From Candidatus Nitrosocaldus sp. (GTDB taxonomy: Archaea; Thermoproteota; Nitrososphaeria; Nitrososphaerales; Nitrosocaldaceae), in NCBI GenBank assembly GCA_025054855.1, contig JANWZS010000006.1, forward strand, positions 1 to 64,000: DNA of 64,000 nucleotides, read 5' to 3'. The notes beneath the pieces are model-generated. The model did not search any database. It had not been told where the DNA came from and saw nothing but the letters and a program-made list of their open reading frames with translations. A program made the translations under genes and the position numbers. Of the stretch, positions 3,854 to 7,489 are shown one piece after another (within the stretch, counting starts at the first letter, position 1; each line of letters begins with the position of its first letter).

Positions 3854-3985
3854 GTAGATCGGATTGTGAGTATGGGCGATAATAGATAAATGCATATAGA
3901 TGGGTGGGGTATATGTTATATTTCAAAGTATAGAGACTAAAATCTATCTTCCTAGATTGAGTATTTAAGCCTTATGGTACAAAAA

Positions 3986-3997
3986 TCTTATATATCG
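3986..3997 (+). promoter_or_regulatory. TATA box of the cupredoxin-propeller gene
   Basis: The sequence atcttatatatc is centred about 26 nt before the ATG at 4018, implying a leaderless transcript. The 160 bp upstream (3854-4014) is AT-rich and holds no ORF. This is one of the best TATA matches in the window. Confidence 0.7.
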
Positions 3998-4017: not shown

Positions 4018-6168
4018 ATGAACAAGGCTGTACTAGGTGCAATTATAGCTGCAGTTGCAGTGTTTGGATTCATTATAGCGCCAATAAGCCTTCAGAACGT
4101 AGATGCTGCAAGGATCAAGCGATCCATAGAGACCAAGCAGCTTGAATCTGAGCCCCATGCATGGTTAGTAGGCCATGAGTCACACCAGGCTGTTAAGGTT
4201 CTTCCAGCACAGGACAATGTGATATACTCTGGAAGGCTAACGTTCACAGCAAACAAGCCTGTGGATGTTGTTATACTGCACCCAAGGAACACATTCCCAG
4301 CAGGTACAGCAGTAACTGGGCAGAATGAGTTTGCTGGTAAGGAGTTCGATGCGGAGATATACAGGAGTGTAGGTACATCAGGCACATGGGTATTCAACAA
4401 CGCCGTCCAGGTGGAGTTGCATAACACACAGGGTGAGCGGTTCAATGCTACAGTAACCGTGTACTATCAGGCTAGGGCGGTAACTGGAGAGTTACCTCAG
4501 CCTCAGGTTGAGATGCCAAGGGCAATAATCGTTAGCGAGTTCGTTCCATGGTTCGTGCCATCAGCTCTCCAGATAGAGCCTGGAACACCTATACAGTGGG
4601 ATGCAAGTGAAGCAGCGAGTGTACACACGATAACATTCGTGACCAGGATAACAGATCTGCAGTTGAACATGGACAAGGAGTACACAGCAAAGACCCTAGC
4701 AATCCTCAACCCAGGGGATAGGTCACAGATATGGAGGCCAGATCCTGGTGTGTACGTGTATGTATGTGCAATACACCCATACATGGTCGGTGTGATATCT
4801 GCTGGCGTACCATACAATGCCATAACCCATGACAGCGATCCAGCGAATGATATAACGACACAGAAGTTCGCATCCTGGATATGGGGTCCAGGTCCCTGGG
4901 AGAGGCCTGAGAGCATACTACCAAAGCCAGCAACACCAGGTGTTGGTGAGGTATGGGTAGATGCACAGTTCGATAGCATGAAGGACAAGTACCTTGGCAA
5001 TCTACTTGGCAAGTTCGCAAAGCCATGGCCAGGGAGCATAAACGTTATAGATGCGAAGACCTGGGAGAGGAAGGCAAAGATAGGGCAGGGTCTCAACAAC
5101 CCACACAACCTATGGGAGTCTGCAGATGGCAAGTTCGTTGTGCAGACCAACTGGCATGACAACTACCTAACGGTTATAGATGCTGAGAAGCATGAGATAT
5201 TCAAGAACTACATCACAACGGGTATGGACCCAGCACACATTGCGGTTACTCCAGATAACAAGTGGGTCATAACTGGCATAAATGCTGGATCAGAGTTCCA
5301 GGTATTCGATGCTAGTCAGATGTTCGATCCAAATGTCAAGGCAGAGGATATAAAGCCAGCATTCTCCATAAGGGCTAGTGTGCCTCTTGCTGGTCCACAC
5401 GGGTTCTGGCTGACTCCAGATGGGCTCATAGCAGGGCCATACCACATGGCCAACCACATAGCAGTACTCTCGATAAACGAGAGGAAGGAGATGCACAGGC
5501 CGATCAACGCTGCTACACTCGATGATCCAGCAGCTCCAGGCAAGAAGCTTGGTGCAGGTATACCCATAGCCTCATACATAGGGCCAGAGATAAACGGGCA
5601 TAGGTACTGGGTCACAGCATTCGTTATGCTTGAGCAGGATAGGCTTCTACAGGGCAGGCTCCTGATATACGATATAGGGAGTGCGGTTGGAGGACCATCG
5701 AACCCAACACTCGTCAAGATCCTCAAGGTGAATGGCACACCCATCCAGAGCCCGATAACCCCAGATGGTAGGTACGTGATCAGCGCAAACTCTGGAGGAT
5801 TATTCGTGATAGATGATGAGAACCATGCAAAGGCAGCCATAACAGTTGTGAAGTTGGACTACAACGATCCAAGCAAGACCCATGTTGCACTGGTGATACC
5901 TGGATATGCAGGGACACATGGTGTCTCCTATGGCTACAAGGAGGGTGGAGGGCTGTACGCATATGTGACGGCAAAGTTCGCTCCAGTACTCAGGGTTATA
6001 GATGTTGAGAAGATAGAGGAAGCGATAGCAAAGAACGATCCTATGATAGCAGTTGCTGGAGATGTTGACCTAGGCGACTCATGGGGAGGCATGGGTGTGA
6101 TAGCGATACCGAATGCAAACTGGTATCCAACACTGGATGAGAACCCTGCAAAGGGTAGGTTCCAGTGA
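4018..6168 (+). CDS. Secreted type-1 copper (cupredoxin) plus beta-propeller protein
   Basis: A 716-aa exported protein (numbering below counts a GTG at 4015 as residue 1; the ATG at 4018 fits the TATA spacing better). A signal peptide spans 1-31, ending at DA/A. Residues about 35-155 form a beta-rich domain of unknown type. Residues about 165-265 form a cupredoxin with a complete type-1 site: H204 and the amicyanin-like C251-x2-H254-x2-M257 loop. Residues about 300-700 form a YVTN-like propeller with repeated TPDG/TPDN blade motifs and conserved-looking histidines H364, H381, H408, H462, H477, H481 and H635. The domain set resembles nitrous-oxide reductase in reverse order, without a CuA site. 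I infer a periplasmic electron-transfer or copper enzyme; the substrate is unknown. There is no membrane anchor. Confidence 0.85.
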   Translation: MNKAVLGAIIAAVAVFGFIIAPISLQNVDAARIKRSIETKQLESEPHAWLVGHESHQAVKVLPAQDNVIYSGRLTFTANKPVDVVILHPRNTFPAGTAVTGQNEFAGKEFDAEIYRSVGTSGTWVFNNAVQVELHNTQGERFNATVTVYYQARAVTGELPQPQVEMPRAIIVSEFVPWFVPSALQIEPGTPIQWDASEAASVHTITFVTRITDLQLNMDKEYTAKTLAILNPGDRSQIWRPDPGVYVYVCAIHPYMVGVISAGVPYNAITHDSDPANDITTQKFASWIWGPGPWERPESILPKPATPGVGEVWVDAQFDSMKDKYLGNLLGKFAKPWPGSINVIDAKTWERKAKIGQGLNNPHNLWESADGKFVVQTNWHDNYLTVIDAEKHEIFKNYITTGMDPAHIAVTPDNKWVITGINAGSEFQVFDASQMFDPNVKAEDIKPAFSIRASVPLAGPHGFWLTPDGLIAGPYHMANHIAVLSINERKEMHRPINAATLDDPAAPGKKLGAGIPIASYIGPEINGHRYWVTAFVMLEQDRLLQGRLLIYDIGSAVGGPSNPTLVKILKVNGTPIQSPITPDGRYVISANSGGLFVIDDENHAKAAITVVKLDYNDPSKTHVALVIPGYAGTHGVSYGYKEGGGLYAYVTAKFAPVLRVIDVEKIEEAIAKNDPMIAVAGDVDLGDSWGGMGVIAIPNANWYPTLDENPAKGRFQ

Positions 6169-6214: not shown

Positions 6215-7489
6215 ATGATCAGTATGTTTAAATACTCTGTGCCTGGAATTGGCAGCATGTATATACCTGCATTATTACTGCTGATACTACTACCATCAAT
6301 GCTAGTAACTGGTGTATATGCCTCATCATCCCCATCACAACCATACGCCATCACACTGTATAGGATCATAAATGGTTACAACGACTCCGATGGTAGATTC
6401 AATACACCATACGGTGCAGTGATAGACAGGAGTGGTAGGATCATAGTGACAGATAACCTGAACAACAGGATACAGGTGTTCGACAGCAGTGGTAACTTCC
6501 TATTCAAGTTCGGTGTACCAGGGTACGATCCTGGGGGATTCACCCACCCATCTGGTGTCAGTGTGGACAGTAACGGGAATATAGTGGTTGCTGACCTGCA
6601 CAACTACAGGGTACAGGTATTCGACAGCAACGGTGTATACAGATTCCAGTTCAATAAGCTTGGCCCATCAGATGGGCAGTTCACGTACCCCATAAGCGTC
6701 GCAGTAGACAACAGGGACAGGATAATAGTGGTTGATACATACATGCATAGCGTTCATGTGTTCGACAGCAACGGTAACTTCCTATTCAAGTTCGGCAGGG
6801 AGGGCTCTGGGGATGGGGAGTTCAGCTTCCCTACTGGTGTTGCAGTAGATGGCAGGGATAGGATAATGGTCGCTGATGTATGGAACAACAGGATACAGGT
6901 GTTCGACAGCAGTGGTAACTTCCTATTCAAGTTCGGCAGGGAGGGCTCTGGGGATGGGGAGTTCATGTTCCCAACGGGGGTTGCTGCACGTGGTGATGTG
7001 CTTGCTGTTGTGGATACGGGGAACAACAGGGTCCAGTTATTCAGGCTCATCGATGCTATTGGTGGTTCTAGACTCCAACTCATAGATGGTAGTGATGGCA
7101 TTATAGATGTTGGGCAGAGCATAAGAGCGGTGGTACATTCCAGCATGGGTAGTGCAAGGTTCATGTGGATAGACCCAGATGGCAATATAGCAAGGGATGT
7201 GAGCAAGGGTATCAGCGATGGCACTGCAGAGGATGAGTTCGCACCCAGCATCATGGGCCAGTGGAGGATAGAGGTAGAGCTAAGCGATGGTTCTAGGACC
7301 GAGAGGCTCACGGCTGATGCAGTGGTGGTACCAGAGTTCCCCATCGCATTACTTGTACTTGCAGGGCTCATCGCTACGATGCTTGTACTACTGCACAGCA
7401 GAGCCAGTGTAGAAAAGACTAAATTTACCCAGGGGGTGGATAGTAGGGTATGGCATTCGAGCAGTTCATGCCAGGGGCAACGGCAGTAG
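6215..7489 (+). CDS. Secreted NHL-repeat beta-propeller with C-terminal PEF-type anchor
   Basis: Cell-surface protein. The N-terminal hydrophobic segment (about residues 14-36) ends in VYA and acts as signal peptide; the true start may be the Met at 6224 or 6257. At least five NHL blades follow, each with an NRIQVFDSSGNFLFKFG-type unit and near-identical DNA in places (recent blade duplication, e.g. about 6763-6825 and 6895-6960). A C-terminal Ig-like region precedes VVVPEFP and a 17-residue hydrophobic helix, a PEF-CTERM-like sorting tail. About 35 residues then run on and overlap psmB by 40 nt. It follows the cupredoxin protein and may share surface functions. Confidence 0.85.
   Translation: MISMFKYSVPGIGSMYIPALLLLILLPSMLVTGVYASSSPSQPYAITLYRIINGYNDSDGRFNTPYGAVIDRSGRIIVTDNLNNRIQVFDSSGNFLFKFGVPGYDPGGFTHPSGVSVDSNGNIVVADLHNYRVQVFDSNGVYRFQFNKLGPSDGQFTYPISVAVDNRDRIIVVDTYMHSVHVFDSNGNFLFKFGREGSGDGEFSFPTGVAVDGRDRIMVADVWNNRIQVFDSSGNFLFKFGREGSGDGEFMFPTGVAARGDVLAVVDTGNNRVQLFRLIDAIGGSRLQLIDGSDGIIDVGQSIRAVVHSSMGSARFMWIDPDGNIARDVSKGISDGTAEDEFAPSIMGQWRIEVELSDGSRTERLTADAVVVPEFPIALLVLAGLIATMLVLLHSRASVEKTKFTQGVDSRVWHSSSSCQGQRQ

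Follow-up and report, generated by a model that had tools for sequence, protein, structure and literature searches.

A cupredoxin-propeller protein of Candidatus Nitrosocaldus is a candidate copper oxidoreductase of ammonia-oxidizing archaea

Gene and domain organization

What might a protein that joins a cupredoxin to a histidine-bearing propeller do in an ammonia-oxidizing archaeon (AOA)? The window analyzed here is a stretch of 64,000 nucleotides from Candidatus Nitrosocaldus sp. (contig JANWZS010000006.1, positions 1 to 64,000), and it contains a gene for such a protein. Archaeal amoA (PF12942) is present in the host genome, which marks the host as an ammonia oxidizer, in keeping with the ammonia-oxidation chemistry raised as possible in a preliminary description of the locus. 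The gene and its domains are as follows.

3976..3994, + strand: BRE/TATA-like promoter box GGTACAAAAATCTTATATA, conserved without change across six Nitrosocaldus genomes
4018..6168, + strand: whole gene, 716 amino acids (anchor, beta domain, cupredoxin, propeller), an ORF with conserved orthologues
4018..4110, + strand: signal peptide or N-terminal anchor, residues 1-31 (AlphaFold2 helix 3-24; sequence)
4117..4482, + strand: N-terminal beta domain, residues 34-155, with a GHExHQ motif and a third invariant histidine, H135; an AOA domain family absent from Pfam
4519..4812, + strand: cupredoxin domain, residues 168-265 (Pfam PF00127, 18.7 bits; PDB amicyanin and NirK cupredoxin)
4930..6165, + strand: seven-bladed YVTN/YncE-type propeller, residues 305-716 (Pfam YNCE; AlphaFold2; Foldseek)

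Full-length orthologues of the 716-residue protein were found in five other Nitrosocaldus genomes (87-92%; 92% in Ca. Nitrosocaldus schleperae and N. tengchongensis) and in two genomes of a second AOA family, here designated f2 (55%). The promoter box lies ~24 bases 5' of the ATG at position 4018. The promoter had been called strong, and its conservation supports the promoter itself but says nothing about strength; the codon usage of the gene, which falls between that of background genes and that of a small reference set, is too weak for a claim about expression. Among the archaeal members, no conserved neighbor and no neighborhood link to copper or nitrogen genes was identified; the gene on the 3' side codes for an NHL protein in Nitrosocaldus, and in f2 it codes for a lyase. 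The NHL-repeat protein located downstream in the window (6215-7489) has a weak PEFG-CTERM match, and its repeat number differs between Nitrosocaldus species.

The AlphaFold2 full-length model (mean pLDDT, 77; pTM, 0.80) was used for its secondary structure, that is, for strand positions and not for coordinates. Its helix 3-24 agrees with the signal peptide recognized previously, be it a cleaved signal or an anchor, and the previously proposed order of the domains also holds, as cupredoxin residues 168-265 precede propeller residues 305-716. The propeller scores over the cut-off of the Pfam YNCE model (PF21783; 28.1 bits, with a cut-off of 27.1) and has the YVTN protein 1l0q as a PDB match.

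The N-terminal beta domain contains three invariant histidines (H53, H56, and H135) and is confidently predicted to be a beta-sandwich (pLDDT, 91). It had been left without assignment in the preliminary description, and our profile search likewise found no sequence match in Pfam or the PDB; the Foldseek comparison to the PDB gave only low-TM jelly-roll and beta-sandwich matches and no clear relative. Among cupredoxin-propeller proteins, only those of Nitrosocaldus and f2 have the domain, and it recurs in unrelated AOA proteins (L014:1573-1977, L018:1159-1872, and L019:1516-1884), one of which has two tandem copies. It is possibly a new metal-binding or surface domain.

Type-1 copper site

Two elements of the cupredoxin domain make up the copper site.

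4624..4626, + strand: type-1 copper ligand H203, invariant in 20 sequences
4765..4785, + strand: type-1 copper loop C250-x2-H253-x2-M256, invariant

The complete type-1 ligand set (H203, C250, H253, and M256) is invariant across Archaea and Armatimonadota, in an alignment of 20 sequences from two phyla that includes Nitrosocaldus, f2, three Armatimonadota, and the propellers of other AOA. The site had thus been read correctly, with residue numbers (H204, C251, H254, and M257) that are one too high when counted from the ATG at 4018. Its assignment as type 1 and not CuA is also upheld by the His-Cys-His-Met set and by C250 being the sole cysteine of the whole protein. The same C-x2-H-x2-M loop and upstream histidine are found in the type-1 domains of amicyanin, plastocyanin, and NirK, whereas the Nitrosocaldus domain is fused to a propeller and to the new beta domain. 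The Pfam Copper-bind model (PF00127) matches residues 179-260 of the Nitrosocaldus member with 18.7 bits, under the cut-off of 21.2, and is matched by 6 of the 12 family members scanned.

Conserved histidines of the propeller

The following propeller residues were considered as ligands or as their neighbors.

5104..5106, + strand: H363, strand A of blade 2 (NNPHN; NPHN), invariant
5155..5157, + strand: H380 (QTNWHDN), second-shell candidate, conserved in the Nitrosocaldus/f2/Armatimonadota clade only
5236..5238, + strand: H407, strand A of blade 3 (DPAH), invariant
5398..5400, + strand: H461, strand A of blade 4 (GPHG), invariant and aligned with a NosZ CuZ histidine
5746..5748, + strand: Q577 (PIQ), strand A of blade 6, invariant in alignments
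5917..5919, + strand: H634, strand A of blade 7 (GTHGV), invariant

There are 12 histidines in the propeller and not about seven, as first counted. Only H363, H407, H461, and H634 are invariant in the 20-sequence alignment, and the other eight vary across Archaea and Armatimonadota. All four were among the five singled out previously (as H364, H408, H462, and H635), while the remaining one, H481, is in fact H480 and is kept only in the Nitrosocaldus/f2 clade. On the basis of the AlphaFold2 strands, the four invariant histidines are located where the inner strand begins in blades 2, 3, 4, and 7. In the blades aligned by eye, Met, Asn, or Gln (GGxGV) is at the matching place in blade 1, with Gln577 beside it in blade 6. 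Of the 412 residues of the propeller, 14 are strand-A start positions, and with random placement the chance of all four histidines falling on these is 8e-7.

The invariance and the strand-A register agree with the earlier proposal that conserved histidines occupy the positions where copper-propeller enzymes place their ligands. Strand register and homology suggest that these histidines point into the central channel, and, judged from the sequences, the four probably hold a second metal. The PHN and PHG motifs were also found in other YVTN propellers (L047). The histidine set is incomplete in two paralogues of the multi-copy genus g25 that are fused to a multicopper oxidase (MCO), L080 being without one histidine and L078 without two; the two paralogues represent natural variants of the propeller histidine site.

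Comparison with NosZ and other copper propellers

The NosZ proteins (clades I and II and L-NosZ, NF052460) resemble the Nitrosocaldus protein in having a seven-bladed propeller, histidines at the inner-strand starts, and a cupredoxin-fold copper domain. In a profile comparison that covers one blade at 8% probability, H461 is paired with a CuZ histidine of archaeal NosZ (SPHGCD), and solved NosZ has a matching NPHGLNTSPDGKY pattern at the histidine register. However, in NosZ the propeller is followed by a C-terminal CuA cupredoxin, an order that is also seen in the archaeal NosZ-like proteins L043 to L046 of other Thermoproteota and that is reversed in the Nitrosocaldus protein. Moreover, the CuA site needs two cysteines, of which only C250 is available, and CuZ has seven histidine ligands, in contrast to the four invariant histidines seen here. 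No match to NosD (TIGR04247), which was found together with NosZ in the genome G125, was detected in six Nitrosocaldus genomes. The L-NosZ model was matched weakly by all 12 family members scanned (32.8 bits for the Nitrosocaldus protein, with a cut-off of 700), and none of 151 genomes of the phylum exceeded the cut-off. Membership in L-NosZ was rejected, as the weak matches reflect YVTN repeats. The kinship to the N2O reductase family that had been drawn from the architecture is accordingly not supported, considering the reversed order, four versus seven histidines, one cysteine, no NosD, and 33 versus 700 bits.

The propeller of thiocyanate dehydrogenase (5oex, 6sji, and 8p3m) is likewise seven-bladed, with a central tunnel that contains copper, and blades 2 and 3 of the Nitrosocaldus protein, these two only, align with it in profile comparisons (E values, 4e-4 to 1e-3). 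Unlike the Nitrosocaldus protein, thiocyanate dehydrogenase has no cupredoxin, and it has more histidine ligands than the four-histidine set. Three coppers are located in its propeller tunnel (PMC9456337). The YncE/YVTN propellers (PF21783; 1l0q) and the beta subunit of hydrazine synthase (5c2v; E value, 8e-13) have the propeller sequence family in common with the Nitrosocaldus protein but lack both the four-histidine set and the cupredoxin.

Distribution and gene fusions

In an order-wide search, the cupredoxin-propeller unit was identified in 33 of 250 genomes. Scored with the archaeal Pfam model PF12942, amoA is present in 32 of these 33 carriers versus 150 of the 250 genomes overall (Fisher p, 5e-7, with species that are not phylogenetically independent); the bacterial AMO model PF02461 had no matches in the genomes searched. 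The family is absent from 118 of the 150 amoA-positive genomes. It has no members in most NirK-bearing AOA and in 33 sampled AOA of the group designated f7, which indicates that its reaction is not a step central to every AOA. The idea that it is the universal hydroxylamine oxidase of archaea was also considered and rejected as unlikely, given the 118 amoA-positive genomes without the family.

The unit of other AOA is either stand-alone (630-670 amino acids) or, in many homologues, fused behind an MCO with HxH, HxxHxH, and HCH motifs. These proteins (630-1147 amino acids) share with the Nitrosocaldus protein the cupredoxin-propeller unit, the type-1 site, and, in nearly all cases, the four histidines, but they often have an N-terminal MCO in place of the GHExHQ domain, have Phe at the position of H380, and form a separate clade. 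The split between them and the clade of Nitrosocaldus, f2, and Armatimonadota received support of 100/100, and the program warned that two long branches meet there. In one Nitrosopumilaceae-like genome (family f9; L112:4935-7486), an operon assigned by eye to a nitrate/sulfonate/taurine-type ABC transporter lies directly 5' of an MCO-cupredoxin-propeller gene and is a possible substrate clue.

In all three Armatimonadota genomes in which homologues were found, SCO1/SenC is encoded directly downstream, which favors copper metallation, and a MarR-type regulator is located upstream in two of the three. One bacterial homologue has, ~7 kb away, a second SCO1 along with a copper chaperone of the PCu(A)C type (L042:1402-2621).

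Two conserved peptides scanned against the contigs of 84,980 species, a search in which close pattern matches alone are detectable, matched only six loci of the Nitrosocaldus subfamily. The PDB, Pfam, NCBIfam, and the literature searched gave no functionally assigned homologue with the cupredoxin-first order, and no description of AOA cupredoxin-propeller or YVTN proteins was found in that literature, which covers few subscription journals. The cupredoxin-propeller family is real and uncharacterized, and it is a new variant of the copper-propeller design.

Exchange with NirK

NirK was searched for with a profile made of five AOA NirK sequences at a threshold of 1e-50. All six Nitrosocaldus and both f2 genomes have the cupredoxin-propeller protein and no AOA-type NirK, and Nitrosothermus (G006), a relative of Nitrosocaldus, has NirK and no cupredoxin-propeller protein. 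In f9, NirK is present in 77 of 81 amoA-positive genomes, 9 of which have the cupredoxin-propeller unit as well. Every combination of NirK and the unit was seen in f7 at the threshold used, with divergent f7 NirKs probably missed. Within Nitrosocaldaceae and f2 there are no exceptions to the swap, but it rests on two or three evolutionary events. An NO scavenger inhibits Nitrosocaldus, although nirK and any known NO-forming enzyme are absent (PMC5817080, PMC5797428), and this is why the swap matters. The layout of NirK, with two cupredoxin domains and T1 and T2 copper, was not found in the Nitrosocaldus protein, which has a single cupredoxin.

Proposed function and alternatives

We put at about even the chances that the protein is a two-centre copper oxidoreductase in which a four-histidine metal site in the propeller and a type-1 copper relay would carry electrons from substrate oxidation to an external partner. 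In this model, the protein would be pseudoperiplasmic, and the histidines of blades 2, 3, 4, and 7 would form a metal site at one mouth of the propeller channel, the matching place being occupied by Met/Asn/Gln in blade 1 and by Gln577 in blade 6. The metal is probably copper, and a small substrate may be converted at the channel mouth. The type-1 copper would relay electrons between the propeller site and the external partner, most likely in the direction from substrate oxidation through type-1 copper to plastocyanin or a terminal oxidase; the fusion of the unit to an O2-type MCO in other AOA suggests that electrons leave the substrate by way of type-1 copper and end on O2 or on an acceptor of the respiratory chain. 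The best guess for the substrate, a weak one, would be a nitrogen compound at the NH2OH/NO level in NirK-less ammonia oxidizers. The preliminary description had proposed a copper redox enzyme or carrier, possibly in nitrogen-oxide or ammonia chemistry; the type-1 site and the ammonia-oxidizing host fit this proposal, and the nitrogen-oxide role is circumstantial. It is rather doubtful that the family is a new class of two-centre copper enzymes performing the NO or hydroxylamine step in NirK-less AOA, with the MCO-fused relatives as self-contained oxidases.

A serious rival, albeit an unlikely one, is copper handling, in which the protein would be a Cu(I) oxidase or a copper scavenger with the propeller histidines as its copper-loading site. 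In N. viennensis, the AOA MCO4 proteins, which are MCOs with an extra blue-copper domain, are strongly upregulated under copper limitation (PMC7785015). This induction would be in line with copper handling, the fused MCOs identified here being candidate MCO4 only, as would the MCO fusion itself and the SCO1 genes beside the bacterial homologues; however, ligands buried in a propeller channel are needless for copper binding, and the usual role of SCO1 is to metallate enzymes. Replacement of NirK in the NirK-less Nitrosocaldus and f2, either from nitrite to NO or from hydroxylamine/NO to nitrite at a propeller copper with the type-1 site as relay, also seems unlikely to us. The exact swap in Nitrosocaldaceae, and likewise in f2, speaks for it, as does the NO-scavenger inhibition of Nitrosocaldus without nirK or a known NO generator (PMC5817080, PMC5797428), but the counts come from two or three clades and are not independent, several AOA outside Nitrosocaldaceae have both genes and many f7 have neither at the NirK threshold used, and the cupredoxin is the sole fold common to NirK and the Nitrosocaldus protein.

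Equally unlikely in our view is that the protein has no catalytic activity and serves at the surface as a YVTN scaffold or a module for electron docking, with type-1 copper only and with propeller histidines that bind zinc or nothing. The best PDB matches, to the structural YVTN protein 1l0q and to non-copper lactonase-like propellers, speak for it, while the invariance of exactly four histidines in strict register, the SCO1 linkage, and the MCO fusion all speak against it. We consider improbable a sulfur- or thiocyanate-type oxidase resembling thiocyanate dehydrogenase or methanethiol oxidase. Thiocyanate dehydrogenase tops the other solved copper-site propellers by sequence (E value of 4e-4 versus 4e-3 for NosZ) and appears at Foldseek ranks 22 and 45; yet the match spans only two blades, other, non-copper propellers outscore it, the ligands are not aligned residue by residue, and the enzyme has no cupredoxin. 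An N2O reductase that works like NosZ is highly improbable: the NosZ-like histidine register in one blade, the weak L-NosZ matches in 12 of 12 scanned members, and the low-pH N2O reductase activity reported for a Nitrosocosmicus strain, as cited in PMC11559005, are outweighed by the lack of CuA, the four histidines, the lack of NosD in the six Nitrosocaldus genomes, and a score of 32.8 bits versus 700.

Implications for archaeal ammonia oxidation

The conversion of hydroxylamine to nitrite is a long-standing gap in AOA, and the sharpest case is Nitrosocaldus, which is without nirK and NO dependent (PMC5817080, PMC5797428). The family described here offers an expressible copper protein that combines a predicted second metal site, a NirK presence swap in one family, and testable ligands. 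Should the substrate be something other than a nitrogen compound, the cupredoxin-first unit with a four-histidine propeller, which in some proteins is joined to an O2-reducing copper oxidase, would still represent a new copper oxidoreductase design. The cupredoxin-propeller protein is a testable candidate for a missing copper step in AOA nitrogen chemistry.
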